DNA of 59,587 nt. It comes from a virus. The notes under the pieces were generated by a model. It was not told the origin of the DNA. It saw only the letters and a list, made by a program, of their open reading frames with translations, and searched no databases. The stretch spans positions 1 to 59,587 of IMG/VR virus record IMGVR_UViG_3300029309_000030; one strand, given 5' to 3'. Below are positions 5,570 through 52,588 of this stretch, piece by piece. Position numbers and translations under genes: made by a program. Positions within the stretch are counted from its first letter, which is position 1; every line of letters starts with the position of its first letter.

Positions 5570-5570
5570 A

Positions 5571-13822: not shown

Positions 13823-15399
13823 TAGGCGAACACCACCACTTCTTTGTAGCGGGTCAATATGTCTGCGGCTTCTTTACGGAACAACTGGATTTTAGAACCT
13901 AAGTCGACATTCTGAGAGCCCTCTGGTATCAAAACGCTGCGGTCATCTGACATCAGTAAATCAGCCGCTACCATCTTAGTAGCAGCCTCTTCTATCGCTT
14001 TCTCCACATATCTTTCTCCGTAGATATAAGATACCTTGACAGAGTTGTGTTCAAAGAAAGGATATGAATTGTTGAAATAAACTATTCCCATCTCTGCATC
14101 TAGCCACCAATCACGCAGTCTTGCTTGGTCACCAGCGGTTCCTGCTTGTAAACTGAGTTGAAGCAAGTGCTGGGTAATAGTTCCACTAGGCGCTAGTGAG
14201 CCTACTACAATTGCACAATCTGTAAACGAAGTAGCAGTAATTCCTTCGTAACGGATTATATTGGTTCCATCTGTAAATACACCTGCCTTGGCAAACCCAT
14301 TCGTACTGTCTACATTTACTGTGCTACCTAAAAAACTAGTAACTGTAGCGGTGTTCTTAGTAACTCGTGTAAAGTCTATATCAGCAGAATTGCTGACTAT
14401 GCTACAAACTTCACCTGCTTTGGTCTGTTTCAGACTAGTGACTTTCAGTTGCCCGCTACCATAGTCAGCATTAGCGCTCGCAAAGAATTCTTGATTGACA
14501 TTTGCTGCGACATTATTTGAGCCCTCTGGATAAAAAATAGGTAAAAATGTCACAATTGACTTCCCTACTCTGTCTTCGTTGTTAATCAAATCAGCAAGGC
14601 TTTGTGCAGCACTGATTTTGTCAGTTTTAACTGACCATTTTAATCCGCTTACTCCTGTCGAACTTAAAGCCTCGGCCTCTAATTTTGCTGCACTACCGTT
14701 ACCGGGTGACAATACAATTGATTTACCTGCAAGTGCTCTCACATCATCTGGTAATTGTATACGAACCTCAGCGCCACATATCTCTCTATAGTTTTCACCT
14801 TGCCACATTTCTATCCTAAGCATTTGTTGAACATTTCTAAACAATAGAGGCGTAGTACCAACATAGTCAGTAAAATATCTGCGTCTGTATGGTTTGTATG
14901 TATCAAAGTTTAGGTATTCCGCCGAGACTAGATAAGGTCTCCAAGCATTATGAGTGATGTTGTCAATGCGGTCTTGTACTTCTTTGATTCTAGTCTCTAC
15001 GGTAGAGCGCTTCATACCACGAGTTTTACCATTAGTAAATGATGCTAAATTTTGTACATGTCCATTATCTGTGGTTTCGTAAAGACCGGGATTTATTGGA
15101 GCAATAAATGATAACTTGACACCACTTGCTGTAGAGGTTATGCTTGTTATCGGTCTTTCTAGTCCTAGCGGGTCAGCGTCGCTGTAAATTAATATTGTAT
15201 CTCCAGTCGAAAATCCAATGTTTCTGTAATCTCCGCCTGTAACAAACACTGCATTTGCCTCTGCATTTGCAGACATTAGTACTGCTTCACTAGGGCCTAT
15301 ACCAAGTAGGTCTGCAACTTTTTGAGCAGTAGTGTAAACTATTGCATCAGGGTCGAAAGGCCGAGTCTCAGGCTCTCCGGGTGAAAATACTACAGGCAT
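13822..15399 (-). CDS. Head-tail adaptor (connector) protein with inserted domain
   Basis: The 525-residue product starts at ATG 15399 in a TAATG overlap, with GGGGGA upstream. The ends look like a phage connector: helical N-terminal segments (TTAQKVADLLGI; RSTVETRIKEVQDRIDNITHNAW) and a helical C-terminus (YVEKAIEEAATKMVAADLL through IQLFRKEAADILTRYKEVV). A large beta-rich middle (about 90-440) makes it much longer than the roughly 100-150 residue adaptors of well known phages. It probably binds below the portal and joins the tail. Confidence 0.6.
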   Translation of the reverse strand: MPVVFSPGEPETRPFDPDAIVYTTAQKVADLLGIGPSEAVLMSANAEANAVFVTGGDYRNIGFSTGDTILIYSDADPLGLERPITSITSTASGVKLSFIAPINPGLYETTDNGHVQNLASFTNGKTRGMKRSTVETRIKEVQDRIDNITHNAWRPYLVSAEYLNFDTYKPYRRRYFTDYVGTTPLLFRNVQQMLRIEMWQGENYREICGAEVRIQLPDDVRALAGKSIVLSPGNGSAAKLEAEALSSTGVSGLKWSVKTDKISAAQSLADLINNEDRVGKSIVTFLPIFYPEGSNNVAANVNQEFFASANADYGSGQLKVTSLKQTKAGEVCSIVSNSADIDFTRVTKNTATVTSFLGSTVNVDSTNGFAKAGVFTDGTNIIRYEGITATSFTDCAIVVGSLAPSGTITQHLLQLSLQAGTAGDQARLRDWWLDAEMGIVYFNNSYPFFEHNSVKVSYIYGERYVEKAIEEAATKMVAADLLMSDDRSVLIPEGSQNVDLGSKIQLFRKEAADILTRYKEVVVFA

Positions 15400-15869
15400 T
15401 ACTGTCCCCCTGCGGGATATTGTGCATAATGGTCTTGCATAGTGTAATTATTTTGAGGGTCTATTGCGTTGTAATAACTAGCCTGTTCTATTTGTTCCTG
15501 CAATGTCGGAGGAGGTAAACCTCGCTGTTCACGAGTTCTGTAATTACCATAACCATCAGGGTCTCTTTGAAGAGGGGAATAGAAATGATTAGTCGGACTT
15601 GCATTAGCAAAACCTCCTCCCGCTAAAGGTATTCCCATTTCATCTAGTATGTCGCTTATAGCATTGCGTTCAGCCATCATAGAAAGAGTATTTCCTGCAT
15701 CTAGGGCTCTATCATAACCTGACAACTTTGTCCCAGCAGGATATCTTGCATCATAGCGGCTGGAATAAGGAAAAGTCTGTTTAACATTTCTAACAAATTG
15801 TTTGGGCGCAAAACTCTGAAAGTTTTGTATTGATTTCAACAAATCCCACGCTGCATCAAAAGCCCTCAT
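15399..15869 (-). CDS. AW-LLK motif protein near the connector genes
   Basis: The product has 156 residues, starting at ATG 15869 with a GGGGAGAG site. It opens with MRAFDAAWDLLK, the helix shared by many proteins at 44206-52339, followed by a Pro/Tyr/Gln-rich, probably disordered body (YYNAIDPQNNYTMQDHY). It lies far from the main cluster of such proteins, inside the head-tail module, which suggests that the helix has a role in virion assembly. No enzymatic feature is visible. Confidence 0.65.
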   Translation of the reverse strand: MRAFDAAWDLLKSIQNFQSFAPKQFVRNVKQTFPYSSRYDARYPAGTKLSGYDRALDAGNTLSMMAERNAISDILDEMGIPLAGGGFANASPTNHFYSPLQRDPDGYGNYRTREQRGLPPPTLQEQIEQASYYNAIDPQNNYTMQDHYAQYPAGGQ

Positions 15870-32408: not shown

Positions 32409-33890
32409 TTATATCGTGAACCAAGATGCACCTGCTACATTTCTTTGTGAAACATCACCAAACCAATCATTGAATCCGTCGAGGTAATCATCAAGCATAA
32501 CCATAGTACCCTTGAATTCTTTAGTAGCCCAGTTAGCCAAAGCCAGACCCATGGCTAAGTCATCATGAGTACCTACTGACTCTAGTCTACCGTTCTTTTG
32601 CATACCGAATCTACTCAATTGCGTTTCAAGAGCACGAGTAAACTCTTTGCTTCTTTCGTCGCCCCAAGGTGTTTTTATCTTACCTTGCTCAAAAGCCATC
32701 AGTAGAGACATAAACATACTCTCTTTCTTTTGACGAGTAGTCATAAATGTCTTGATAGGAATGTCGTCACGCATTTCTTTCAGTTCCGCCTCAAACATTC
32801 TTTGGAAGTTGTTACCTTCAAGTTCGATAAGGTCTGGTCTAAATCGACTGTTGAGCATAATTATCTTTCTTTTTTGTGCGTTGCTACCTAATCCCTTTTC
32901 ATTAACTATATGTATCAATTGCTTTTCGTCACCTTCTGGTAACATCCTCAACACAACCATAGCGGTGTAATCAGCATTTGCATCTGACGCAATAGCCGGG
33001 TCCCAGCCGATAAAGTGCTGACCGAACACACCAGACGGGTCGCCGTTTTCATCAAACTCTTGTTCTGCTTTGTCAATCAAAATCAAATCTTTGTCCCTTG
33101 CTTTTTCTAACAAAGTCATCGGGAACATACTCGACATGTCGTGAATAGGCTCACAAAGATACTCACGAGCGAACTTAATGGCTGGCATCGACTCTTCTCG
33201 TACCTTTAGTGCATCCAGTGGCCATCTACCGGGCCAAAGAGGTTCACCGTTGGGCAATATAGCAGGGTATGTCTCGACCCTAAATGCAGGCTTGTCCTCT
33301 AATTCAGCATACAGGTCGTTGTAACTGAACGGTGTGCCAACCATCATCAGTCTACCTGTGTGGTGCAGAACCGGAAGTAGAACAGTATAGAACCAGTCAG
33401 CGGCTCTTTGTAATTCAGAACTAGTAGTACCCCACAAAATATCGTCACATACTACAACATCAGGGTGGAAACCACGAGTAGCACCACCAACTGACTTAGC
33501 CATGATACGGCTACCATTAGTGAATTCAAAGTAAGACTTAGCCCAAGGCTTACCTGTTGGCTTTAATTCTTTCAAAATATCAGCGCTTTCGATGTTGTTA
33601 CGGATGAATCGCATGTGTTCAAGCGTCTGCTCAAGGCTGTGACTGAATACCATGATGTGAGTATTGGGGTTAAAAGCAGCCAACCAAAGTGCATAAGACA
33701 TAAAAAATACTGATTTACCATGGTCACGGCTTGCTTTGACGCAGTATCTTCTACTTTCACTTAGACCTGCTAACCAATCTCGGTGGTGGTTTGAAAAATC
33801 AAACTCTAAGATTTCAGTAAAGAAATACTTGAATGACTTTTTGGACATCTCTATGTCCATGTCTCGGATGAGGTTGTTGACATCACTCAA
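32409..33890 (-). CDS. terL: Terminase large subunit
   Basis: The 493-residue packaging ATPase-nuclease starts at TTG 33890, with GGAGG 7 nt upstream, overlapping the preceding stop. The ATPase domain has Walker A ASRDHGKS (53-60), Walker B DVVVCDD (144-150) and a coupling motif VGTPFS (184-189). The RNase H-like nuclease domain begins at GWDPA (Asp297), with further acidic residues at LIELEGN and the C-terminal THDDLAMGLALA. It binds the portal and pumps DNA into the prohead. The length is typical of the family. Confidence 0.92.
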   Translation of the reverse strand: MSDVNNLIRDMDIEMSKKSFKYFFTEILEFDFSNHHRDWLAGLSESRRYCVKASRDHGKSVFFMSYALWLAAFNPNTHIMVFSHSLEQTLEHMRFIRNNIESADILKELKPTGKPWAKSYFEFTNGSRIMAKSVGGATRGFHPDVVVCDDILWGTTSSELQRAADWFYTVLLPVLHHTGRLMMVGTPFSYNDLYAELEDKPAFRVETYPAILPNGEPLWPGRWPLDALKVREESMPAIKFAREYLCEPIHDMSSMFPMTLLEKARDKDLILIDKAEQEFDENGDPSGVFGQHFIGWDPAIASDANADYTAMVVLRMLPEGDEKQLIHIVNEKGLGSNAQKRKIIMLNSRFRPDLIELEGNNFQRMFEAELKEMRDDIPIKTFMTTRQKKESMFMSLLMAFEQGKIKTPWGDERSKEFTRALETQLSRFGMQKNGRLESVGTHDDLAMGLALANWATKEFKGTMVMLDDYLDGFNDWFGDVSQRNVAGASWFTI

Positions 33891-38202: not shown

Positions 38203-38904
38203 TCACAATAAATCCATTATGTCTTCATCTATTTTACCGTCTGCTTGTGCAAGTAAACCGGCTTTGACTCGCTTCCAAGTTTCGGGGCTCTCCTTACCTA
38301 ACTCCACTTTAAGCACATTGATAGTATTGTTGGCAATATTCTGTGTTGGCTCTGCCCATTTTTCTTGGTAAGTCGTTAAATCTTTGAGAGTTTCTCTTAC
38401 CTCTTTATGCAACCTAACCATATCAGATATGACACCGTCATCATGTATGCTTGTTTCTTCCATAAACTGTGCAAGTTTACCGTTTAAGCCTTGTACATTG
38501 TTTCGCAATATATTAACTTCCTCTCCTACTTTTATAGATACAAGAGCGGTAGAACTTTTCTTTACCAAGGGTTGGAAATGGTGCTTCATATGTCGATAAA
38601 CTGCTTCTTCACTACACTCTAATTGTTGAGCAATTTCTTCTGTGGTGATATTACCTTCAAAGTAATCTACTTCTAATATTCTTCTGTTATCGTCAGTGCA
38701 TACTTTACACGAATGATTTGCACCCTCGTGGTATTCACCTACATGATTTTTCATGTGTCGTTCTGCGGTATTGGCTCTCCAACCCATATCTTTGTCCAAA
38801 ACTTGAGGGTTAGCAATGCCGTCAATGATGTTCTGCTCTAACATTTCACGGTCACCGTGTTGACAAAAAGGACATGACCGTTTAGTCTGACGCTGACCCG
38901 CCAT
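38203..38904 (-). CDS. Tandem zinc-HTH protein, candidate small terminase
   Basis: The product has 233 residues. Two repeats have identical spacing: Cys11/14 with His50/54, and Cys66/69 with His105/109, that is C-x2-C-x35-H-x3-H. Between the cysteines and histidines are helix-turn-helix segments (ITTEEIAQQLECSEEAVYRHMKHH is the clearer one). The C-terminal half is coiled coil (VNILRNNVQGLNGKLAQFMEET; DMVRLHKEVRETLKDL). DNA-binding HTH plus oligomerising coiled coil, upstream of TerL, fits a small terminase. A transcription regulator is an alternative. Confidence 0.65.
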   Translation of the reverse strand: MAGQRQTKRSCPFCQHGDREMLEQNIIDGIANPQVLDKDMGWRANTAERHMKNHVGEYHEGANHSCKVCTDDNRRILEVDYFEGNITTEEIAQQLECSEEAVYRHMKHHFQPLVKKSSTALVSIKVGEEVNILRNNVQGLNGKLAQFMEETSIHDDGVISDMVRLHKEVRETLKDLTTYQEKWAEPTQNIANNTINVLKVELGKESPETWKRVKAGLLAQADGKIDEDIMDLL

Positions 38905-38964
38905 AGAAAGCCCATGGTATTTACACGGATAACCCTTTTGAACAAGAAGCCCCAGTCAAGATGT

Positions 38965-39300
38965 ATGAAACTGCCTAGAATACAGCCTAAAATTATGGGC
39001 GTACCCGTTTCTATAGAGACTGCTAGAAATCTAGCAAAGGCTGGTAGAGACATAGCAATGAAAAGATATGTTCCAGATGATGTGAAAAGAAGCAGAATGG
39101 AACATTGCATGATATGTCCAAGTTGGGAACACAGAAGTAACAGATGTTTAGAGTGCGGTTGTCAAATGAGAGTAAAAACTAGTCTCACATCAAGTGAGTG
39201 CCCTCTTGGAAAGTGGGGTAGATTAGTAATATTAAATACTGGAAATTCTGCTATAGATGCCGCCGAGCATAAAGAAAGCGCCGAACAAACCAGCAACTAG
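38965..39300 (+). CDS. Lone rightward gene: cysteine-rich zinc-binding protein
   Basis: ATG 38965 (MKLPRIQPKIMG) is preferred over ATG 38914, since the extra residues look uncharacteristic; neither has a clear ribosome binding site. The 111-residue product has a helical N-terminus and a cysteine cluster HCMICPSWEHRSNRCLECGCQM...ECPLGKW. C-x2-C...C-x2-CGC...CPLGKW is a pattern found in small phage proteins of unknown function. It is the only gene on this strand left of 52 kb, and its 3' end overlaps the convergent membrane gene by 69 nt. Confidence 0.6.
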   Translation: MKLPRIQPKIMGVPVSIETARNLAKAGRDIAMKRYVPDDVKRSRMEHCMICPSWEHRSNRCLECGCQMRVKTSLTSSECPLGKWGRLVILNTGNSAIDAAEHKESAEQTSN

Positions 39301-39477
39301 GTAAGCCATAGTATCACTACTCAGATTATCAGCACCTGTGACTAAAATAAGACCAAGTGTAACTATTATCGCTAGTAATTGAACCATGACCATATCAATG
39401 ATAACACTTTTCATAGGAGAAAATATGCCCATGGCAGTGTTTGAAATGCTGTAAAGTGGATTATTATCTATCATCAT
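39232..39477 (-). CDS. Two-helix membrane protein
   Basis: The product has 81 residues with two strong transmembrane segments (VQLLAIIVTLGLILV and MAYLVAGLFGAFFML). It overlaps the end of the convergent rightward gene. It follows the Gln/Met-rich gene with a 4 nt overlap and closes the membrane/GTPase group, so it may act with that set in the host membrane. A holin-like role is possible from size and topology but not supported by any signature. Confidence 0.65.
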   Translation of the reverse strand: MMIDNNPLYSISNTAMGIFSPMKSVIIDMVMVQLLAIIVTLGLILVTGADNLSSDTMAYLVAGLFGAFFMLGGIYSRISSI

Positions 39478-40126: not shown

Positions 40127-41152
40127 CTATTGTTGAGGGAGGCTCATCTGTTCTGATTGTTCCAAGGTGTTTTGATTGATAACACCATTGGTTGTATTAT
40201 TTACTGCCATACCAACCGAGCCTCCGGCACTTGGGACGACATTTTGTGTAATTCCTAAATTAGCAATCGCATCACTGAGTTGGGGATTGGCTGCTAATAT
40301 TTCTTTTTGAAATAACCTCAAATCGAAATATATTGCAGTTATATCATTGATTCCGGTTTCTGGGTTTTTGTAATGCATTAGGCTAATACCGGCCTGTGTC
40401 TTAGAATCTTTTTCGAGTTCCATAAAGAACGGCTCATACTTTTTTAGAAACTCAGGAGTGTTATCTTTTTTCTTGACTATAGAAATTGGCACTGCGATTG
40501 TTGATACACCCTTTTTAACCATCTCTTTCATACCAGTTTTAGTCTTATTATGCTCTTTGTCAGCCTCTAGTTCCCATTTGCACAATAGATGGTAAAGATG
40601 CAAGTGCTCAGGACAATAAGTACCTTTCATTTTCCTACCGTTAGTCACTTGCTCTCTAGCAACAAACGGTTCCGGTGTTTGTGTCACCGGATTTCTCCAA
40701 TACAAATCCCAAAGACTTTGACCAGACTCTTCGTCAGTGATTTTTGCATAGAGATTATCATACTTGATTAGTTCTTCGCAGTTGCATCCGTCAACCACGC
40801 ACAAGTTACTCTGTCTGTTGTAACGGTATTTGCGACCCCATATCCATCTGATGGGGTTATACCAAGCCCGTTTTGTCGGTGTTAATAATTTTCTAGCCTG
40901 CTTAATATCTTGCTTTCTTGCTTTTCTTGGGTCAGGATGTCTACTTGGATAAAAATTAACTTTTGGTACTTCGATGTTTTGTTTAGTTGCGACTTCTTTC
41001 ATACCCTGTTGTGCTGCTTGCATCTCAAGCAACTGCTCATGACTAGCGTTACCCTGCTGTCCCAATGCTGCTAAATGAGCCTGACTCATGTTTGCCAAAT
41101 TTACATCGCCCTGTGGCACCCTTCCGTATCCTCCAAATCCCCAATTGTTCAT
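40127..41152 (-). CDS. Zinc-finger protein next to the GTPase
   Basis: ATG 41152 (MNNWGFGG) follows AGGTGATAAG, so the upstream in-frame codons are left out. The product has 341 residues: a Gln-rich N-terminus, a basic amphipathic stretch (KQARKLLTPTKRAWYNPIRWIWGRKYRYNRQ) and a metal site CVVDGCNCEE...YCPEHLHLYHLLCKW, then an alpha/beta C-terminal domain ending in a Gln/Asn-rich tail. The same kind of C-x4-C...C-x-E-H finger occurs in the 44378-46123 product. The basic Trp-rich stretch may contact membrane. Function unknown. Confidence 0.6.
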   Translation of the reverse strand: MNNWGFGGYGRVPQGDVNLANMSQAHLAALGQQGNASHEQLLEMQAAQQGMKEVATKQNIEVPKVNFYPSRHPDPRKARKQDIKQARKLLTPTKRAWYNPIRWIWGRKYRYNRQSNLCVVDGCNCEELIKYDNLYAKITDEESGQSLWDLYWRNPVTQTPEPFVAREQVTNGRKMKGTYCPEHLHLYHLLCKWELEADKEHNKTKTGMKEMVKKGVSTIAVPISIVKKKDNTPEFLKKYEPFFMELEKDSKTQAGISLMHYKNPETGINDITAIYFDLRLFQKEILAANPQLSDAIANLGITQNVVPSAGGSVGMAVNNTTNGVINQNTLEQSEQMSLPQQ

Positions 41153-41160
41153 CTTATCAC

Positions 41161-41880
41161 CTAACTTAATAAATCCAACATCGTATTTTCTACATTCCAT
41201 CCTATTTTTGTTGCCATCATACCACGCTTTGTTGGCACCCCAGCCTTTTGAAGCCTAACCAAATCTTCTCTAAATGGGTCAAATATTTTATGTTCGCCCA
41301 GTCTTTGTTGTTGCCAAAGCACATTCGCTTGCTCATCCCACCACTGGTCAGCCTTGTTAGCAACTAACATAATTAACTTTGGTGCATATTTTTTACCTCT
41401 GAACCAAGCCTTGAATTTACGATAACGATATTGTCTGTGTAATATAGCATCGACTAAATACTTGAAGCCGCCGACGGCCTGTACTGCCTCATCGCCACCT
41501 TTGCCACTTCTGTGGTCAATTAAGAAAATCACCGCTTCTACTTGTCTATTGACCAAATCGTCAACCCAAAGATTCCAAAAGCGTTCTTCACCACCAATGT
41601 CAGAAGAATAAACTACTCTCGTATCGCCTTTGTAGGTGACTCGCTTTCTACTTGGTCTGGGTAACAAAAAATGATTAATGCCGGGGACCTTGAAATGTTT
41701 TGTTCTGTCTGCTAAAGGTATTTCTTCCATTTCTCCCGGCGTAGTCATGTATCTGTCTAAAGTAGTTTTACCTACCATAGTAGGTCCATACACTCCAACC
41801 TTCCTTGGTTTCCAATAATGCCACAACTCTTTAGCAAATACCACTCCACCAACAAGAGCAGAACCACCTAATGCTGACAT
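41161..41880 (-). CDS. Arf-like small GTPase with N-terminal hydrophobic anchor
   Basis: The product has 239 residues from ATG 41880 with a GAGGTG site. G motifs are clear: G1 GPTMVGKTT (32-40), G3 SDIGGEERFWNLW (93-105), G4 NKAD (175-178) and a possible G5 ATKIGW. DIGGEE followed by F-W-x-L-W is closest to Arf/Sar/SR-beta GTPases (DVGGQ-type). Residues 3-20 are hydrophobic (GGSALVGGVVFAKELWHYW), suggesting a membrane anchor as in SR-beta. All GTP-contacting residues expected at G1, G3 and G4 are present, so it is probably active. The neighbours are membrane proteins and a zinc-finger protein. Confidence 0.8.
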   Translation of the reverse strand: MSALGGSALVGGVVFAKELWHYWKPRKVGVYGPTMVGKTTLDRYMTTPGEMEEIPLADRTKHFKVPGINHFLLPRPSRKRVTYKGDTRVVYSSDIGGEERFWNLWVDDLVNRQVEAVIFLIDHRSGKGGDEAVQAVGGFKYLVDAILHRQYRYRKFKAWFRGKKYAPKLIMLVANKADQWWDEQANVLWQQQRLGEHKIFDPFREDLVRLQKAGVPTKRGMMATKIGWNVENTMLDLLS

Positions 41881-41889
41881 AATTACACC

Positions 41890-42138
41890 TCAATCGAAAA
41901 TAGAGTTAGACCAACTCTGTAATTTTTCTTTCAACCAGTTGCCTGTAGATTCCCAAAGGTTCCAATCAGTATAATATTCAAAAGCACTGATAGTAAAGGC
42001 TGTTGCTGTAGAAAAAATCACTACTTTAATCCACCCCATACCTCTTTCATAGGCCACATCAACAGTATTCGCTATATGCATACTCCTCAAAGTTTCTTCA
42101 ACAGCATCGTCGCTGGGAGTCTTGAAGATTCGACCCAC
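41890..42138 (-). CDS. Single-pass membrane protein of the GTPase group
   Basis: The product has 82 residues from GTG 42138 with an AGGAGTGA site. One membrane segment (IKVVIFSTATAFTISAF) is followed by a Trp-rich amphipathic C-terminus (YYTDWNLWESTGNWLKEKLQSW). The gene is spaced 9 nt from the GTPase gene, so the two are likely made together. The amphipathic tail may lie on the membrane surface. No family is recognised. Confidence 0.6.
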   Translation of the reverse strand: MGRIFKTPSDDAVEETLRSMHIANTVDVAYERGMGWIKVVIFSTATAFTISAFEYYTDWNLWESTGNWLKEKLQSWSNSIFD

Positions 42139-42144
42139 TTAGGT

Positions 42145-42699
42145 TCACTCCTTTTTCTTGTATCTACCATCAGCGCCTCTAACTTTACCAGACTTGTCTT
42201 GCTTTTCTTCGGCAAAGTCAACCCCAAGTGTCAACGGATTCTTTGCTTTAGGTGTTTCGGGAACAAAATCGGCGGTTCCTAAAGTATCACCATACATTCG
42301 AGCCTCTATCCAAGGGGGAGTTTCGCCCGGATGCTCTTCCATCCACTTTAGTTCAGCCTCTAATTGGGCTTCTTGCATACGCATTTCCATGTCTTGTCGC
42401 CTACGGTCAAAGGTAAACTCCATACTTCGATATCGGTTTCTGCGCTCTCTTTCTTGCGCTGCCATTCTTGCTCTTTCATCCATGCCTTGTTGAAAGAACA
42501 TTTTGAATAAATAATAGGCTAACCCTTGAACAGCAAATGCTGCCATGGCGTAGGTGACCCCGTTGGTAGTAGGATTGTCTAAATCAATCCATAGCGCAGC
42601 GTCAAAAACACCTACTGCTATACCTATACTCACTGCTTGGGTCAATATAAGACCCATCAATCTAATCTCTGCTTGGTCGTGCTCACGATTGGCTTCCAC
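42145..42699 (-). CDS. Two-helix membrane protein with charged coiled-coil tail
   Basis: The product has 184 residues from GTG 42699, with GAGAGGG 5-11 nt upstream. Two membrane segments (LILTQAVSIGIAVGVFDAALW and VTYAMAAFAVQGLAYYLFKMFF, about 15-65) precede a highly charged helix (RARMAAQERERRNRYRSMEF...MRMQEAQLEAELKWMEEH). This first gene of the membrane/GTPase group has its own likely promoter upstream. The topology suggests a membrane-anchored cytoplasmic rod that could serve as docking site for the GTPase or virion parts. Confidence 0.65.
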   Translation of the reverse strand: MEANREHDQAEIRLMGLILTQAVSIGIAVGVFDAALWIDLDNPTTNGVTYAMAAFAVQGLAYYLFKMFFQQGMDERARMAAQERERRNRYRSMEFTFDRRRQDMEMRMQEAQLEAELKWMEEHPGETPPWIEARMYGDTLGTADFVPETPKAKNPLTLGVDFAEEKQDKSGKVRGADGRYKKKE

Positions 42700-42847: not shown

Positions 42848-44206
42848 TTAATCGTCTTTATTTTCAGAATCTAATTTTTGCCTTTTACCATTCTTTGAAG
42901 GGCCGGGACCTGCTTTTGAACCAATAACAATAACCATACCATGAGCAGGTTTCTTGTCATCTTTCTTTTTCATATCCTTAGCACCCTTACCATCAGCAGC
43001 AAACTTTGGTACTTTCTTACCACCATGTTCGACCATCTCTAAGCCTTCTGCTTTTCTTTCTCCCATGCAGTGGGCTTTACCCAAACAATCTTTTTTCTTA
43101 CACGCCGAGCACTCTGCTTTCTGTTCTGTACCACAGTGCGCTTTGTGTATTCTATACTTAATTTCGCTTATCATTTCGTTTCCTAATCTATTTGTAAACA
43201 TATTATCACTCTTTAGTAATCTGTTAGCAATGTGCATTTCTTCCCCGGTGGCCACTGCCTTACCGCCGTATTGTGCGCTGTCCTCCACTCCCTGCCATAT
43301 TTTTTTCCGTCTGGTAGGGTCTTGGTTACCCAAGACTGGAGTATTAGTTGCGCCAGTTGCCCCGGCTGATGATGTAGAAGAACCGTAGCCAGATGTATCT
43401 ACGCCACCTGCGCTAGGTAGAGCACCTTGTACGAATGGTGCGACAGCGGCAAGGGCTAATTCGGGAACACCTTGCTGTATACCTTGTCCTATGACTTGCG
43501 GTATTCTTGCTGCTGTTCCATATTGCTGATAAGCAGTAGGTTGCTGAGCAATCTCGTCTAATCTACTGGCTTTTCTTCCTAACTTATTGCTTCGCCTAGC
43601 AGCCTGTGCTGCTAATTCAAACTGCGCTTCGGGTGCACGAGATGCAATGCGTTGATTTAATGCATTGACATCTCTGAAATTGATAGGAACGCCTGCTTCC
43701 CGTAGACCCAAAAGTTCGTCACGCTCAGCACGAGCGGCCATCCGGTTTTGAACAGCCCCCCTTGCGTCAGCCGCTGTTCTTGTCGATGCTTCTCTTGCAG
43801 CCTTGGCTCTGTTGGCTGCTCGTTGTGCTCGCTGTGCTCGACTTAAACCAACAGTACTCCTTGCACCTCTGGCAATCCCCCCTGTAATAGCAAGTGGATT
43901 AAGACCTTGAAGTGCACCGAAAGCACCACCTGCAAGTCTACTTCTCCCGGAACTACCTAATTCGTGGTCCATAAGTATACCACCAGTAAGAGGGTCATGA
44001 AGCGCAGCGTCTGCATGAATACCGGGGTCAAATTTACCAGTTTTTGGATTGATGAATCTGCCACCAGCACCGCTATAGGCACCTAATAAACCAAACCCCG
44101 CTCCAACTGCCAAAGGGATTAAGGGAACAATTTTTTCTATCTTATCATCGTTTTGTAACAACGACCATGCAGAATCAATCGCATATGATGATTCCGACAT
44201 GTTCAT
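42848..44206 (-). CDS. AW-motif protein with Gly-rich hydrophobic patch and Cys-rich tail
   Basis: ATG 44206 is chosen because GGTG lies 8 nt upstream. The product has 452 residues. It begins MNMSESSYAIDSAWSLLQND, a copy of the shared helix, and has a second, TGEEMHIANRLLKSDN, at about residue 330. After the first copy comes a hydrophobic Gly patch (IPLAVGAGFGLLGAYSGAG), a long Arg/Ala helix region (RAQRAANRAKAAREAS), then a cysteine cluster (CGTEQKAECSACKKKDCLGKAHC) and a Lys-rich tail. The layout suggests an internal virion protein with membrane-active and DNA-binding parts; this is inference. Confidence 0.65.
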   Translation of the reverse strand: MNMSESSYAIDSAWSLLQNDDKIEKIVPLIPLAVGAGFGLLGAYSGAGGRFINPKTGKFDPGIHADAALHDPLTGGILMDHELGSSGRSRLAGGAFGALQGLNPLAITGGIARGARSTVGLSRAQRAQRAANRAKAAREASTRTAADARGAVQNRMAARAERDELLGLREAGVPINFRDVNALNQRIASRAPEAQFELAAQAARRSNKLGRKASRLDEIAQQPTAYQQYGTAARIPQVIGQGIQQGVPELALAAVAPFVQGALPSAGGVDTSGYGSSTSSAGATGATNTPVLGNQDPTRRKKIWQGVEDSAQYGGKAVATGEEMHIANRLLKSDNMFTNRLGNEMISEIKYRIHKAHCGTEQKAECSACKKKDCLGKAHCMGERKAEGLEMVEHGGKKVPKFAADGKGAKDMKKKDDKKPAHGMVIVIGSKAGPGPSKNGKRQKLDSENKDD

Positions 44207-44378
44207 TCGCACGACACCACTCATCATAAGCCTGTTGGATAAATTGATAATGGTCAGCAGCCTCCATCAATAAACTGAGGCTTTGTGAAGAGCCATCACA
44301 GTGATGCTCTATCTTGCCCAAATTCCACAAAGCAACATGTAGCATTTCTTCAAAGAGTTCTTTCCACCAGTCCATCAT
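44175..44378 (-). CDS. Small helical unknown protein
   Basis: The product has 67 residues from ATG 44378, overlapping the previous stop as TAATG, and ends 31 nt inside the following gene. It is predicted helical with Trp-rich start (MMDWWKELFEEMLHVALWNLGKIEHH) and a Cys near each end. The tight coupling on the 5' side supports it as real. No function can be assigned; it may be a distant, rearranged version of the shared W-containing helix. Confidence 0.5.
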   Translation of the reverse strand: MMDWWKELFEEMLHVALWNLGKIEHHCDGSSQSLSLLMEAADHYQFIQQAYDEWCRANEHVGIIICD

Positions 44379-46123
44379 TACAATCTACCTGTGGTAACGA
44401 GAACCAACTCCCGGTCAATAGGCTTTGTGCTTTTAAGCGTACCTCTTTCCTTGAAATGACGGGCTCGGTTAGTATGCGGGTCTTCTGCAACCAGCGTATG
44501 CCGCTTAGTATGACTCATGTCAGGGCCACCCTTGCCGTAAATGCCTCTTCTTCGTCGCTCACGATTTAACTCTTCACGATATTTTACACGCTCAGGTGTA
44601 GATTCATACTTTTTGTCATACTCTAACTTATGACGCTTAGCCTCTGGACTTACCGGATTCTTGAGAAGTCGCCAAGAAAGGTCTATTGGCTCACCTGCTT
44701 GTATCATTTCTTCTTCCTGTTCTTCTAACATAGGTGAATCTTCCATAAGTCCAACTGGAGTATTCAGATAATCTGTCATTCTTTGCTTCATTCTGCCAAA
44801 CTTGCCCGTAGGTAAATCTGGATTACCTCTTACATCTCCGAACCCAGAACCATACTGATTTATTGTAGTAAATGCTCGTTGAGTTTTTGGAGGTTGCATT
44901 TCAAACATGTCGGGTTGTTGTCTAATTCTACCTTGTAATACTCTTACAGAATTGTTCAAAACATTGAAATCATTTTCTAACTGAGGGGTTCGCCTACCAC
45001 CGGACATCATCATAGTCTCTGGAATTCTCGAAACAAAATCTTTGGCTTTTTGCTGAGATAAAGGGAACGGTAACTCTCCACCCTGATAAGAAGGTGGGCG
45101 AGCCATAACTTGAGAATCCGGTTTAACAAACTTACCTGTCAAATAAGGAACTAATAAATCTCTAATTGTAGCGTTGGGATTATTTCTTAGATGAGTTTGT
45201 AACAAGTCATAATCCATTTCGGTAGGTAAGTGACGAGCGTAGTCACCTCGCCTAACTGATTTTATTATCGAGTTCATTTTTTGCACAAGCACTTGAGCAA
45301 GGTCTGGCTCATACTGCATGGCATGCTCAGTGCACATATGATGGGTATAATCTACGCTTCTTAGCGGGTTGGCATACCTTGCTTTCATCATAGGAGGATT
45401 GTTACAACCGGGTATCGTGCAAGTTTCTGGAGCGTCTACGCCTAGCATACTACCCACACTAATTAACTCTGGAGAAGCATCAGGCATGTTTTCAGGAAAC
45501 TCGCCTTGTTTCAATACCAGCACTGATTTTTTCATTTGTTTAGTTTTCTTTTTCTGTTGTTCGATAAAGTTTCTATAGACACCGGCCTCTTTGGTTTTAC
45601 CCATCTCTCTTGCCCTTTGTTCCATGGCAATGGCTGCCTGTGTTTTGTGAGCGTGACTGCGACTACTATTTTTGATTTTACTAACTGATTGCTTTGCTTT
45701 AGCCGGGTCTTTGAAGCCAAGCCCGTGAATAGTACCTTTTGGATTCTCATCAGTATACAAATCGGAATGTTTCTTCGAGCCTGCGGGCTGACCTTTCTTA
45801 CGAGGTATACGAGGTGCTTTTATCAACACGCTTTTCACAACTGTTGGTTTACCACCAACTCCTTGTTTCTTGGCTCGCTTACGCTTGGTCGCTGCTCGCT
45901 TTTGTCCACTAGTCATCTCGCCGCTAGTCTTTGGAGTCTTACTCGATACTCTTACACTTGGTCGACACTTTGGATAACCTTTACTACCTTTCTTGGCTTT
46001 CGACCTGCCACAAGGTGGGTGTTTACCATCTTTACCTCGACGACTGACATCAACCCACTTTTCTTTGAACCACCTGTTAAGGTTCTTGACAATAAGAACA
46101 TCATGACAGGTGCATTCTGACAT
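44378..46123 (-). CDS. DUF5872-type basic protein with AW motif
   Basis: The product has 581 residues. Residues about 10-95 (NRWFKEKWVDVSRRGKDGKHPPCGRSKAKKGSKGYPKC region, then GEMTSGQKRAATKRKRAKK) match the small basic domain annotated DUF5872 in marine phages and giant viruses. A zinc-finger-like part follows (CTIPGCNN...MCTEHAMQY, about 235-275). Near residue 470 it has QAGEPIDLSWRLLKNP, an internal copy of the shared helix. The C-terminus is basic (KYREELNRERRRRGIYGKGG). It probably binds nucleic acid and is carried in or assembled with the virion. Confidence 0.7.
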   Translation of the reverse strand: MSECTCHDVLIVKNLNRWFKEKWVDVSRRGKDGKHPPCGRSKAKKGSKGYPKCRPSVRVSSKTPKTSGEMTSGQKRAATKRKRAKKQGVGGKPTVVKSVLIKAPRIPRKKGQPAGSKKHSDLYTDENPKGTIHGLGFKDPAKAKQSVSKIKNSSRSHAHKTQAAIAMEQRAREMGKTKEAGVYRNFIEQQKKKTKQMKKSVLVLKQGEFPENMPDASPELISVGSMLGVDAPETCTIPGCNNPPMMKARYANPLRSVDYTHHMCTEHAMQYEPDLAQVLVQKMNSIIKSVRRGDYARHLPTEMDYDLLQTHLRNNPNATIRDLLVPYLTGKFVKPDSQVMARPPSYQGGELPFPLSQQKAKDFVSRIPETMMMSGGRRTPQLENDFNVLNNSVRVLQGRIRQQPDMFEMQPPKTQRAFTTINQYGSGFGDVRGNPDLPTGKFGRMKQRMTDYLNTPVGLMEDSPMLEEQEEEMIQAGEPIDLSWRLLKNPVSPEAKRHKLEYDKKYESTPERVKYREELNRERRRRGIYGKGGPDMSHTKRHTLVAEDPHTNRARHFKERGTLKSTKPIDRELVLVTTGRL

Positions 46124-46659
46124 TAATTAAAACCTCTTATTCTCTTCAAATCACGAGCGACTTCTTCGTCAGTGACAGGTTTGTTAGTTTTGCGACGGTA
46201 TGAATCAGGTACAATTGATTGTCTAGCAGCGCTTCTTATTGTAGCAAAGAAGTTCTGTAATTCTTCGTCACTCATTGGTGTATTGAAATCTCTTGGTTCG
46301 TCACTAGCAACGGGCGGTGCGTTAAGTTGGGCTTCGAGTGCTGCTGCCTGTTCTCTAAACCTACGAGCATCGCCGGGGTTGCGAGAAAAGTCTGCTTGTG
46401 TATTGAGGTCAAGAACTTGTAAATCTGGCTGTGTTTCATAAATTCTAGTTCCACCAAGAGAGGGGAAGCCGCCAAAAAAAGGACCGGGTTTTGCGCCACT
46501 AGGTCCGTAACCTAATGTATTACCACGAGGTGTATAGGTTTCTCGCATTTGCTGCATAGTTTGAAAGTGCCTCATGTCTTTTTCTGGTGTATCTTCAAAG
46601 TCTAGCACGCTAGGTTGAAGAGCCTTAAGGACAGACCAAGCAGATTCAAACGGATTCAT
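46123..46659 (-). CDS. AW-LLK motif protein
   Basis: The product has 178 residues from ATG 46659, with GGGGGAG upstream and a 4-nt overlap with the preceding stop. It starts MNPFESAWSVLKAL, then an acidic stretch, a Gly/Pro-rich extended middle, and a helical C-terminus (DEEVARDLKRIRGFN). No catalytic motif was seen. It belongs to the run of genes whose only common feature is the N-terminal helix. Confidence 0.65.
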   Translation of the reverse strand: MNPFESAWSVLKALQPSVLDFEDTPEKDMRHFQTMQQMRETYTPRGNTLGYGPSGAKPGPFFGGFPSLGGTRIYETQPDLQVLDLNTQADFSRNPGDARRFREQAAALEAQLNAPPVASDEPRDFNTPMSDEELQNFFATIRSAARQSIVPDSYRRKTNKPVTDEEVARDLKRIRGFN

Positions 46660-47924: not shown

Positions 47925-48144
47925 CTTTTTCACCTTGCTTCAACTTCTCCATGGCGTTGTATCTGAGTACTCTGACCATCGAAGACAAATCTTTGACTTC
48001 TGACTGAGTAGATTCTAATTTTTTAGCAATAGTATAGATTGCCAAGGCTAAAGCGACTATACTTAGGCCAGTAATTAAATCCCAGAACATGCTTGTGGGT
48101 AAACGATACCCTACTTGAACTTTGGTGTCACTTAGTAACTTCAA
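47902..48144 (-). CDS. Single-pass membrane protein with coiled-coil tail
   Basis: The product has 80 residues from TTG 48144, overlapping the previous stop; the start is uncertain because no clear ribosome site is seen. One membrane segment (MFWDLITGLSIVALALAIYTIA) is followed by a charged coiled coil (KKLESTQSEVKDLSSMVRVLRYNAMEKLKQGEKDE). Its topology resembles small phage lysis or virion-anchoring proteins, but no signature was recognised. Confidence 0.6.
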   Translation of the reverse strand: MKLLSDTKVQVGYRLPTSMFWDLITGLSIVALALAIYTIAKKLESTQSEVKDLSSMVRVLRYNAMEKLKQGEKDERQTKK

Positions 48145-49067
48145 GCAGTTTGGTCAACAGCGGTTTGTCGAGCGCCGCCTTGCTTTCCAAGTTGCCTCGC
48201 AAGTTCCATTAACCTTACTTGACTCATGGCCTGTGGGTCAACAGTTCTCCTAAGTCTTGTTTGTAGTGGGATTACTCTTTCATTCATAGGTGCTGAGCGA
48301 GGCCCCATACCTTGAGGTTGGTCTGGTCTCATGGTAAATCCGGTCATAGACTCTTGGGGTCTGAAAGGGTTGGGTTGATTATCAATTGATTGCCGTGTTC
48401 TAATTCCTCTTCGACCTCCACGACCTGCTGTTTCTAATTGTTCGTTGATTCCGCCAGACTTTGGTTCAGGCTTCAAGTCTACTTCTGCTGGTCTGTCAAA
48501 CTCAGTGCTCTGCTGTTGAGCAAACTGTTCGAGTATATCTGCTGTATTTTGAGCAACGGTAGGCTTGCCTGTTCTTTCTTGTTGAGTTTCTACAGGTTTA
48601 GTATCTCTTCTAAGCCTTGTTGGACTTGCTACACCGACATTTGTTCGGAGCATGCCTTCTTTCATTCGGTAAGGAGTAAAGCCTTGTTCGCCTCTAGCAC
48701 CGCTTTCCATCCTACGCCTTGCAGCACCTACTCCTCTACGAGCCATACCTCTTTCCGGTTGAGTCATAAAGGCTTCTTCCGGCATAGTTTCTGTGATTGG
48801 TATAGATTCATATGCGTCAAGGTTTCTACCGCTGCCCATTCTTGACATGGTAGTCTCACCTAATGGAGTAATGTCTTGCATGACTGTGGGGTAGCCCTGC
48901 CTTGTTGCACCAGAAAAGTCAACAAAAGGAGGTAGACCTTGTGCGCCTTCTCTTCTTTGCCTTTCTATCATGCTAATCAAGGTATCAGGTCGCAAAGACC
49001 CCATTCCACCTTGTGCCAAAGGGTCTGCCTTTAGTAATGCCCACGCCTGCTCAAAGGCTCTCATCAT
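48141..49067 (-). CDS. AW-LLK motif protein, Arg/Gln-rich
   Basis: The product has 308 residues from ATG 49067 (a second ATG follows). It opens MMRAFEQAWALLKADP, one of the clearest copies of the shared helix. The remainder is Arg/Gln/Pro/Met/Gly-rich and probably disordered (RRGVGAARRRMESGARGEQG; RTRQSIDNQPNPFRPQ). The high basic content suggests nucleic-acid contact. It is directly downstream of the lyase gene, with 17 nt between. Confidence 0.65.
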   Translation of the reverse strand: MMRAFEQAWALLKADPLAQGGMGSLRPDTLISMIERQRREGAQGLPPFVDFSGATRQGYPTVMQDITPLGETTMSRMGSGRNLDAYESIPITETMPEEAFMTQPERGMARRGVGAARRRMESGARGEQGFTPYRMKEGMLRTNVGVASPTRLRRDTKPVETQQERTGKPTVAQNTADILEQFAQQQSTEFDRPAEVDLKPEPKSGGINEQLETAGRGGRRGIRTRQSIDNQPNPFRPQESMTGFTMRPDQPQGMGPRSAPMNERVIPLQTRLRRTVDPQAMSQVRLMELARQLGKQGGARQTAVDQTA

Positions 49068-50116: not shown

Positions 50117-50656
50117 TTATTGGTCGAACTGTAGTGGTTGAGGTCCACTACCAGCCCTAACTTTTGCCAGCGCTTGTCCTAAAGGTGTCATACTCTGCCT
50201 TAACTGTTCAAGGTCAGGTCTGAAAGGTGCAGGGGTTAAACTACCTGCCATACCGATGTTAGCAGGCGGAGCGCTGCTCGGTACATCAGGTAGTTCTATT
50301 CCTTCTGCTTCAATATCTTCCGCTGCTCGCTGTCTTTGTAAATCAACCATTGGACCCACATTTTGGCTCGCTACATCAATATCCCTATCATAGTCGTCGG
50401 CAAAAAGGTTTGATTCTCGAATAGCATTTAAGAGGTTATCTGTGTGTTCATCTCGTGAATAAAAATCTTTTGAGTAGCCGGGAATAGAAAGATGTCGACC
50501 TAGTTCTTGAACAAGTAATTTTCGTCGGTCAGTCTCGTCGACTCTAGCATCAATCAAATCTTGCAGGTTTTTAATTTCGTCTTGTTCCATTTCTGGTCGA
50601 TAAATTTCGTGCCCACGCTGCTTAAGCAGTGTCCAAGCGTGGTCGAATGCTGTCAC
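50117..50656 (-). CDS. AW-LLK motif protein
   Basis: The product has 179 residues from GTG 50656, overlapping the previous stop. It opens MTAFDHAWTLLKQRG, then an acidic helical region (QDEIKNLQDLIDARVDETDRRKLLVQELG) and an acidic Pro-rich C-terminal half ending in a possible helix (LEQLRQSMTPLGQALAKV). It is the third of four consecutive genes with the same N-terminal helix but otherwise unrelated bodies. Confidence 0.65.
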   Translation of the reverse strand: MTAFDHAWTLLKQRGHEIYRPEMEQDEIKNLQDLIDARVDETDRRKLLVQELGRHLSIPGYSKDFYSRDEHTDNLLNAIRESNLFADDYDRDIDVASQNVGPMVDLQRQRAAEDIEAEGIELPDVPSSAPPANIGMAGSLTPAPFRPDLEQLRQSMTPLGQALAKVRAGSGPQPLQFDQ

Positions 50657-51111
50657 TGTTGTTGGCCTCCACCTAGTGGACCAAACCTTTTAGGTCTACC
50701 TACATCATGGAATTGAAAATCAGTAAACCTTTCTGGGTCTCCTCCTCTTGAAACACTCATTCCGGGTGCAACGCCTAATTTTTTAGGACCAGCGGGTAAA
50801 CCGAGGACTTTAGGCTGGTCAACGCTTCTACCACGATAGGAAAAAAACGGTGTTTCGTGTATGTAAGGGTCAAATTTGTCACCGTAGTAAAGTCGATTAA
50901 TGTCTGCTGCGATAAGTTCTGTCGTCATTGCGTCTATAGCCGCCCGTTCTATTTCATCTCTCGTTGCTCTACCGTCTGGGCCGGGCTCATCTGGTGCATT
51001 TCTTGCCATATCCATATATGCTGCTGCGTGTGAACGACCTAAGCCTTCTCCACCTGATAAATCACTAAAGTCTGCTTTTAAAAATGCCCATGCTTGCTCG
51101 AATGCTGTCAT
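50653..51111 (-). CDS. AW-LLK motif protein
   Basis: The product has 152 residues from ATG 51111 with GGTGAACA upstream. It opens MTAFEQAWAFLKADF. The body is acidic and helical (ATRDEIERAAIDAMTTELIAADINRLYYGD), with a Gly/Pro-rich C-terminus. No catalytic motif or membrane segment is visible. Confidence 0.65.
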   Translation of the reverse strand: MTAFEQAWAFLKADFSDLSGGEGLGRSHAAAYMDMARNAPDEPGPDGRATRDEIERAAIDAMTTELIAADINRLYYGDKFDPYIHETPFFSYRGRSVDQPKVLGLPAGPKKLGVAPGMSVSRGGDPERFTDFQFHDVGRPKRFGPLGGGQQQ

Positions 51112-51117
51112 TGTTGT

Positions 51118-51765
51118 TCACCGTCTTGAAAAAGATGTTCCGAGTCCAGCCTGTTGTAAATTTCCACCAGTGGAATATGGGAACCTATTGGTTTCCATAA
51201 TAGAAGGTGCGTTTGCACCGAAAGTCAACGCTCTTTGTTGCTCAGGTGTAAGTTCTGGCTCTAGTGAAGGTGCGTAATCATCCATAAGATGTTCTCCGGC
51301 TTCTATCTGTTCGGGCGTGAATTGACTCATGAAAAGTTTATCCATCAATTCCTGTGTAGAGCCTGCTGGCGGCCTGTGAGTTCTTGGGACCCCACCGGCG
51401 TAAGTTTCTTGTCGATAATTTAGCGGCACTGGTGGATGAACGCCCGGATTCTCTGCAACAAATCGTGCTCTTCGGTCAGGATACATAAGTGGTCCTTGGT
51501 CAAACTGTTGAACTCTTGACATACCTTCTCTAGGTGCAAGAGGGAAACTACCTAACTGTTCTCTAAACATGGCAGCCGCTAAATCTGTATGGGGATGCAT
51601 AGCCCTGCGACCTGATTCTGTAACAGTATCAATACCTCCGAACCTATTTGGTTTACCAAGTTCCCTTGCCGACTCCTTTAATCGTCGACGCTCTATATCA
51701 AAAGTCGAGCCGGGGCCCGTAAATTGTTTGAGGACTGTCCATGCTTGCTCAAAAGCCCCGACCAT
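51118..51765 (-). CDS. AW-LLK motif protein
   Basis: ATG 51765 places the shared helix (MVGAFEQAWTVLKQF) at the N-terminus as in its neighbours; the frame is open further upstream to 51858 but those residues look uncharacteristic. The 215-residue body is Arg/Pro-rich and extended (PREGMSRVQQFDQGPLMYPDRRARF) with one acidic helix (FTPEQIEAGEHLMDDYAP). Function unknown. Confidence 0.65.
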   Translation of the reverse strand: MVGAFEQAWTVLKQFTGPGSTFDIERRRLKESARELGKPNRFGGIDTVTESGRRAMHPHTDLAAAMFREQLGSFPLAPREGMSRVQQFDQGPLMYPDRRARFVAENPGVHPPVPLNYRQETYAGGVPRTHRPPAGSTQELMDKLFMSQFTPEQIEAGEHLMDDYAPSLEPELTPEQQRALTFGANAPSIMETNRFPYSTGGNLQQAGLGTSFSRR

Positions 51766-51799
51766 GTAAGCCCTATGACCGTTGAAGATAAAAGCGTTA

Positions 51800-52339
51800 C
51801 TAGATATTATCGTAGACCGCATCGGTAGGCAGGCCGTGATAATCAGCGTAGTCTTCACTTAGTTCATGGCTCCAAGGTTGCTTGCTTTCTTTGTCGTAAG
51901 CATAAACAAAATGCTGGTCTCCATCTAAGTTGGTGCGTATGTGAGGGCGTTCATGAGCACCGTCGAGCACACCCTCGTCAACTAATTTGTTCCAATAACC
52001 AGCCGAATGCCTCTCAACATTGGTTACATGTGTGCCATCTAATTCGTGTTCAAAATGTGCGTGTCCTTGGTCAATCATGTCTTGAATATACTGACGAGAC
52101 TTGTTCTGTCCCCTAACTGGTTCAGCCATCTCAAAATTATTTATCAGCAAACTGTTTAGATAATAATCAGGTCTCATGGTGCCACGAGCCATGCCGTCTT
52201 CTGACTGCCACATGAACCCGCCCATCTGGTCAAGATAGGGCAACATCTTGTAGTGACGACTCTGCTGCATAGGTGGTGGATTGTCATCCGTATAGACAGG
52301 AGCCTTGAGCAAACGCCAAGCCTGCTCGAAAGGGCTCAT
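51800..52339 (-). CDS. AW-LLK motif protein, first gene of the leftward block
   Basis: ATG 52339 gives MSPFEQAWRLLKAP; upstream in-frame ATG 52351 and TTG 52366 are possible but would extend through the iteron. The 179-residue product is His/Tyr/Asp-rich (QGHAHFEHELDGTHVTNVERHSAGYWNKL; LDGDQHFVYAYDKESKQPWSHEL) and seems folded, unlike some of the later ones. A TCTAAACCC iteron ends 1 nt before the ATG, so this gene adjoins the control region. No known family is recognised. Confidence 0.65.
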   Translation of the reverse strand: MSPFEQAWRLLKAPVYTDDNPPPMQQSRHYKMLPYLDQMGGFMWQSEDGMARGTMRPDYYLNSLLINNFEMAEPVRGQNKSRQYIQDMIDQGHAHFEHELDGTHVTNVERHSAGYWNKLVDEGVLDGAHERPHIRTNLDGDQHFVYAYDKESKQPWSHELSEDYADYHGLPTDAVYDNI

Positions 52340-52340
52340 G

Positions 52341-52588
52341 TCTAAACCCATGAGCGAACAGGACAAAAAGCCATCGGTTTGTTTGGTATACCAAAATTTT
52401 TCTAAAAATTTTTTTTGGTCGAGCGCCGTGTGTGGTTAAAAGGAGTCTAAACCCACATCTAAACCCAAGCCTCCGCCTAAGCGTCTAAACCCAGCGCCGT
52501 CTAAACCCGGCGTGGGTTGCAGACTAGGCGAACAGGCTCGCAGTACATCGGTCTATAGAGAAAAGGGTTTAGGCTGAAACCTAAACCC
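52341..52588. repeat. TCTAAACCC iteron cluster
   Basis: TCTAAACCC occurs at 52341, 52446, 52458, 52484 and 52500. A near copy CCTAAACCC is at 52580 and an inverted GGGTTTAG at 52565. The four central copies lie within 63 nt. Such a cluster at the junction of two divergent gene blocks is typical of initiator or regulator binding sites at a replication origin or operator. Confidence 0.7.
52390..52420. repeat. AT-rich imperfect dyad
   Basis: CCAAAATTTTT, a CTA centre, then AAAAATTTTTTTTGG form an imperfect inverted repeat made almost wholly of A and T. It lies between the first iteron and the main iteron cluster. It could be an easily melted origin element, or a promoter region for the leftward genes. 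Confidence 0.5.

Follow-up and report, generated by a model that had tools for sequence, protein, structure and literature searches.

The window, a virus fragment of 59.6 kb (59,587 nucleotides) devoid of the replication part of the genome, carries at positions 41161-41880 on the minus strand an open reading frame of 239 amino acids with an ATG start, a predicted small GTPase gene. The plus strand of the same interval has 12 stops in the same frame. The first-pass annotation had picked out this open reading frame without giving its strand; it is real, and the strand is minus. The three peptides quoted there were located in the translation, GPTMVGKTT at residues 32-40, DIGGEERFWNLW at residues 94-105 and NKAD at residues 175-178, and elements G1 to G5 follow one another along the protein in the correct GTPase order.

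Conservation of these elements was read from an alignment of 132 distinct homologues with a minimum pairwise identity of 48%; in IMG/VR, three queries led to 176, 211 and 239 confirmed related stretches, respectively. The P-loop (G1, GPTMVGKTT, 41761-41787) retains G37, K38, T39 and T40 in 131 of the 132 homologues, the sole exception being truncated at that region. Thr60 (41701-41703), which lies inside an invariant RT-x-H and is the probable switch I residue of G2, an assignment made by position only, is present in all 132, as are D94 and G97 of the G3 motif DIGG (residues 94-97, 41590-41601), with G96 in 123/132 and L104-W105 in 132/132. G4 (NKAD, 41347-41358) and G5 (M222-A223-T224, 41209-41217, in the context MAT-x-x-G-W-N-V-E, residues 222-231) are likewise found in 132/132. 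Since the motifs are retained in 131-132 of 132 distinct homologues, their pattern is not due to chance. Comparison of the window with the relative L087 gave a dN of 0.058 and a dS of 1.28, and the gene is under purifying selection.

Searches with the single sequence gave matches to Pfam Arf (E 0.024) and NCBIfam small_GTP (E 0.013), both sub-threshold, and the family consensus as query matched Pfam Roc (E 0.001); nearly all sub-threshold profile matches pointed toward GTPase families. Sequence searches of the PDB with the protein and with the profile yielded nothing relevant, and the consensus produced a weak Arl match only (E 1.4). An AlphaFold2 model built from 26 family members (pTM 0.74, mean pLDDT 73) displayed the Ras-like order of strands and helices, with a six-stranded Rossmann-like fold and an antiparallel beta-2, and was least confident around the P-loop and switch I (residues 31-60, mean pLDDT 44-58). 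When this model was compared with the PDB using Foldseek, 804 matches were obtained at E<=0.001, and the best 50 of the 804 were small GTPases or complexes containing one, albeit with moderate TM-scores of 0.4-0.5 by query length. The top match was the small-GTPase chain of a tubulin-cofactor complex, which we take to be Arl2, followed by Rab, Rho and Ras. Among predicted viral proteins (BFVD), those matched at E<=0.001 came from large eukaryotic viruses and were GTPases and translation factors. The same fold search with a model of the neighbouring Z357 protein, which served as a negative control, gave zero matches at E<=0.001.

These results bear on the reading of the protein as some other P-loop NTPase, terminase-like, SIMIBI or AAA, rather than a small GTPase. 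The sub-threshold single-sequence matches would leave room for it, but NKAD and DxxG stand at G-protein spacing, beta-2 is antiparallel and the confident fold matches listed are exclusively small GTPases. Structure prediction returned a G domain and no terminase or SIMIBI fold, and this alternative is thus largely refuted and extremely improbable. The earlier proposal that the virus encodes a small GTPase was therefore borne out by the motifs, the model and the fold matches, which point to a G domain complete with switch regions. Taken with the distribution described below, it is very probable that the protein is a single-domain Ras-like small GTPase and that its gene belongs to the fixed core of tailed viruses of the magrovirus type.

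The family varies at residue 98 (41587-41589), the position of Ras Gln61, which is Gln in 74 homologues, Glu in 45, among them that of the window, Asp in 12 and His in one. This switching among Q, E, D and H took place at least nine times on the tree while the nucleotide-binding motifs stayed fixed. Such drift at the catalytic position could be envisaged in a protein that binds GTP without switching and uses its G domain as a structural scaffold. However, a dead scaffold would have no use for the essentially invariant G1 to G5 and switch Thr seen here, and Ras Q61E retains GTPase activity, so that we regard this explanation as very improbable.

The first-pass annotation had assigned the protein to the Arf-like branch. 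The family does possess Arf-type traits, namely DxGG[Q/E/D], ..LW in helix 2, 'AT' in G5 and a residue other than Gly, mainly Thr, Ser or Pro, at the Ras Gly12 position. In profile-profile comparisons its best match was to an Asgard Arf group (probability 94.0 over 126 columns, 27% identity), nearly tied with two Ras/Rab groups (93.2 and 92.7) and followed by Arf-like (89.1), ArvA (70.0, over 35 columns only), Rag (58.8) and IF2 (0.85). The comparison set consisted of 27 Arf-profile matches from one Asgard genome and three from two bacterial MAGs, two of the latter three being IF2 proteins that were used as controls, together with 19 Asgard ArvA proteins found via their partner ArvB. The best profile scores were about 12 bits, against 6.9 for the top of 40 shuffles per cellular protein. 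The Pfam Arf cut-off (PF00025, 22.3 bits) was not reached either by the window protein (14.5 bits) or by the consensus (9.4 bits).

A tree of the virus family with the 30 Arf-profile matches and eight ArvA proteins recovered the virus proteins as one clade (support 100/100) on a branch of length 4.04, but its placement relative to the Arf and ArvA sets was unsupported (39/58). In topology tests neither a virus+Arf grouping (p-AU 0.18) nor a virus+ArvA grouping (p-AU 0.26) was rejected, and virus+Rag was nearly rejected (0.067). The Arf-like assignment is thus favoured by the Arf-type motifs and the best profile match, but the near tie with Ras/Rab, the sub-cut-off Pfam score and the unsupported tree placement leave it tentative. 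Because of the near-tied profile scores, the unsupported placement and the two unrejected groupings, the protein is described here, without a narrower branch or a donor, as a Ras-like small GTPase with Arf-type motifs.

Compared with the known families, the viral proteins share with Arf/Sar/Arl (PF00025, including the Asgard Arf-like proteins) the best profile match, the top fold match, the motif traits listed above and an N-terminal helix. They differ in having two basic inserts, a Gln that is often Glu or Asp and a position 2 that is usually not Gly, and the tree leaves them unjoined to Arf. ArvA (OapA) is also a small GTPase with an N-terminal helix and a Zn-ribbon protein in its operon, acts on the membrane (PMC10927574) and shows a local likeness to the viral family through G1-G2 (IYG..GKTTL ... 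IP..xRT), but its G3 is DxPG where the viral family has DxGG, and overall profile similarity is weak. The SR-beta label that had also been attached to the gene was not supported. SR-beta resembles the viral protein in general plan only, as a GTPase behind an N-terminal membrane segment, and there was no match to SRPRB (PF09439), even at E<=10 with the consensus, the N-terminal helix of the viral protein is of moderate hydrophobicity only, and no SR-alpha partner was seen. The Rab/Ras GTPases of giant eukaryotic viruses (BFVD) are likewise virus-encoded Ras-like G domains, but they belong to another realm, have approximately 8-17% identity to the viral family, are Rab/Ras by annotation and are not known to be core genes.

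The N-terminus had been called hydrophobic, as in membrane-anchored members. A helix predicted at residues 3-23 (41812-41874), modelled with low confidence at its start and followed by PRK/PRR, is moderately hydrophobic, with a best 19-residue Kyte-Doolittle mean of 1.24 (family median 1.09), but falls under the usual transmembrane threshold and is too weakly hydrophobic to be called a membrane span. It could therefore either lie on the membrane or span it weakly. Two strongly basic segments are conserved in charge, an insert between switch I and beta-2 (residues 63-80, 41641-41694, net charge +5; family +3 to +8) and a linker between helix 3 and beta-5 (residues 149-168, 41377-41436, net charge +9; family +6 to +12). 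Together the helix and the basic segments suggest membrane contact; the basic segments could alternatively bind nucleic acid.

The GTPase gene lies in a block with the order M184 - M82 - GTPase - Z357 - P214 - M81 - TerS-like, which was complete, collinear and on the same strand in 68 of 84 sequences. All its members in the window are on the minus strand. M184 (42145-42699, homologues in 78/83 loci), the first gene of the block, is predicted from its hydropathy peaks to form a two-TM hairpin with a long, charged, helix-like tail. M82 (41890-42138, 75/83 loci) is a small protein with one weakly predicted TM segment whose gene ends nine bases before the GTPase start, the median M82-to-GTPase gap in the family being 1 nt. 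Z357 (40127-41152, 82/83 loci) probably starts at 41152, beyond the stop codon of the GTPase gene, within an open reading frame that extends to 41200; its invariant Cys/His motifs, C..DGC and TYCPEH.H.YH, indicate that it probably binds Zn. P214 (39474-40118, 83/83 loci) is a conserved Q/M-rich protein, and M81 (39232-39477, 79/83 loci) is a small protein with a predicted two-TM hairpin (Kyte-Doolittle peaks 2.61 and 1.79). The next conserved gene (38203-38904, 81/83 loci) encodes an HTH protein that, from weak HTH and TerS matches, may be the small terminase subunit. The remaining five neighbours in the block, this TerS-like gene excepted, had no convincing Pfam or PHROG match. The hydropathy of M184, M82 and M81 and the conserved block thus bear out the view that the gene is embedded among viral membrane proteins. 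M81 would be holin-like in size and topology only, and any lysis or egress character of the small membrane proteins is likewise suggested by size and topology only.

No GAP- or GEF-like partner was recognised among the neighbours in domain searches or in the fold search with Z357. A role of Z357 as GAP or GEF was also considered from its predicted structure and set aside, the model being weak (pTM 0.47) and having no PDB fold match. Nor did the neighbours tested include a match to an MglB (roadblock) partner. An opposite-strand ORF (38914-39300, plus strand) lies between M81 and the TerS-like gene and has homologues in 52/83 loci, and in contig L163 an extra small ORF (3708-3911), AbrB-like by eye, lies between the GTPase and Z357 genes; together with gaps of up to approximately 1 kb at the same point in other relatives, the latter suggests an insertion hot spot between these two genes.

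The window also encodes a large terminase, a portal, a prohead protease, an SU10-type MCP and an HMGL-like enzyme (HMG-CoA lyase), and the block sits in the morphogenesis half of the genome with the first four of these. Magrovirus gene content includes terminase, portal, protease, MCP and HMG-CoA lyase (PMC10768690), and the head genes and HMG-CoA lyase of the window, along with the PolB of its relatives, are shared with the Magrovirales (Aoguangviridae, Apasviridae and kin), which are marked by HK97-type head genes and genomes of 90-110 kb. By gene content, therefore, the window is part of the genome of a tailed virus of the magrovirus type. The magrovirus literature gives Poseidoniales archaea as hosts, and the host named here would follow from that attribution. 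At the left end of the window, a very long ORF (2-5578, minus strand) of at least 1859 aa runs off the stretch.

The large terminase subunit (32409-33890, minus strand; Pfam Terminase_6N, 1.9e-7) was used as an independent bait for related contigs. All 49 terminase-recruited contigs that reached far enough carried the GTPase, which lay 7.6-9.4 kb upstream of the bait, and it was present in 72/72 contigs recruited through Z357 with a distant member leading. Among the GTPase-bearing relatives of 96-118 kb, 11/11 encoded a single GTPase together with a family B DNA polymerase. The gene is thus fully conserved in related viruses, and given its presence in all of the terminase- and Z357-recruited contigs, it is a fixed core gene and not a sporadic acquisition.

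Outside this group, searching 50,697 phage records with the consensus, a set that lacks both ICTV exemplars of the magroviruses, gave no GTPase homologue even at E 10, and none was found in PHROGs; a gut-phage match (E 0.2) and a microvirus match (E 2) were dismissed as chance. Three matches to GTDB genomes lay on 8-18 kb contigs (L162, L163 and L164) in unrelated MAGs, named as Maricaulis, an Asgard group archaeon and Cytophagaceae. They were considered as cellular homologues and rejected, since the viral gene block is clear in L163, and the three contigs are apparently mis-binned virus DNA rather than host genes. The acquisition from an archaeal host put forward in the first-pass annotation is a hypothesis; the family forms one clade on a very long branch, and these contigs are its sole genome matches.

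As to function, we give about even chances to a membrane-associated GTP switch that acts with the membrane proteins of its operon late in infection. Such a protein would cycle between GTP and GDP at the inner surface of the host membrane, held there by its N-terminal helix and two strongly basic segments; GTP binding and membrane attachment are steps that we infer, and late expression is presumed from gene position. In its GTP form it would engage a partner from the same operon, M184, M82, M81 or Z357, and this engagement would determine when or where a late step at the membrane occurs, most likely the egress of virions or a remodelling of the membrane. That purpose appears the most plausible by analogy with ArvA, an archaeal small GTPase which drives vesicle formation in Haloferax and whose Zn-protein neighbour was proposed as its GAP (PMC10927574). 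A specific role in egress or membrane remodelling is a tentative proposal, and on balance somewhat unlikely; the part in virion exit or protein targeting suggested in the first-pass annotation is likewise a hypothesis.

The position of the block beside the terminase genes makes a packaging or virion role possible, and this is the main rival. As a virion or assembly component, the GTPase would be in or on the particle and could, for example, govern the order of head assembly, genome packaging or the ejection of DNA through the membrane. It is part of the morphogenesis cluster, at the distance from the large terminase given above, it shortly precedes the HTH/TerS-like gene, and its basic segments could touch DNA. 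The tightest neighbours, however, are small membrane proteins, and we know of no tailed-virus packaging or ejection machine with a Ras-like GTPase. In addition, the GTPase does not have the N-terminal AFExAWxLLK-like motif common to several ORFs of the structural region. Overall we consider a virion role unlikely.

This short motif, of the form M-x-A-F-E-x-A-W-x-L-L-K, occurs mostly at or near the N-terminus of otherwise different structural-region ORFs (15399-15869, 46123-46659, 48141-49067, 50117-50656, 50653-51111, 51118-51858, 51800-52366, 42848-44227 and 44378-46123, all minus strand). The AFExAW-type motif was matched nine times, whereas 0.4 matches were expected from shuffled sequences and none of 200 shuffles gave more than 3; it resembles a tag that targets proteins to the capsid or scaffold. 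The last of these ORFs (44378-46123) encodes a 581-aa protein with an N-terminal DUF5872 (E 4.6e-11), and its C-terminal part separately matches a PHROG (E 2e-19).

It could also be envisaged that the viral protein imitates a small GTPase of the host, for instance ArvA, or interferes with it. Vesicle formation, protein targeting or polarity of the host cell would then be redirected or blocked, and the protein would not itself drive a viral membrane step. The ArvA pattern through G1-G2, the unrejected virus+ArvA clade and the control of vesiculation in Euryarchaeota by ArvA (PMC10927574) would be consistent with this. Against it, the ArvA profile match is weak and ranks under those to Arf and Ras/Rab, and no match to ArvB (PF09846) or ArvC (PF09845) was found among the viral neighbours tested. 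Host-takeover genes are also usually less conserved. Host mimicry thus seems quite improbable.

The GTPase is absent from the accessible descriptions of the Magrovirales and goes unmentioned in the accessible magrovirus literature, and may have been annotated in Philosof 2017, Zhou 2023 or Prabhu 2025; literature searches for small GTPases of phages or archaeal viruses found nothing relevant. The fold is a known one, but its universal retention in a viral role is unexpected. In the boldest reading, which we consider improbable, release in a whole order of tailed archaeal viruses would depend on remodelling of the host membrane by a Ras-like GTPase that these viruses encode themselves, its regulators and membrane effectors lying in the same operon. 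This would be the viral equivalent of Arf/ArvA vesiculation, and the first example of such a switch among prokaryotic viruses.

Switches of the Ras/Arf type are best known for the control of membranes in complex cells. A widespread group of archaeal viruses of the ocean carries a protein of this type in every genome examined, so that a switch of the Ras-like kind, long familiar in the membrane traffic of eukaryotes and now in archaeal vesicles, is fixed in a major group of prokaryotic viruses. A universally kept GTPase adjoining small membrane proteins offers a concrete, testable handle on these viruses, and a viral GTPase of this kind is relevant to how small GTPases spread early on.
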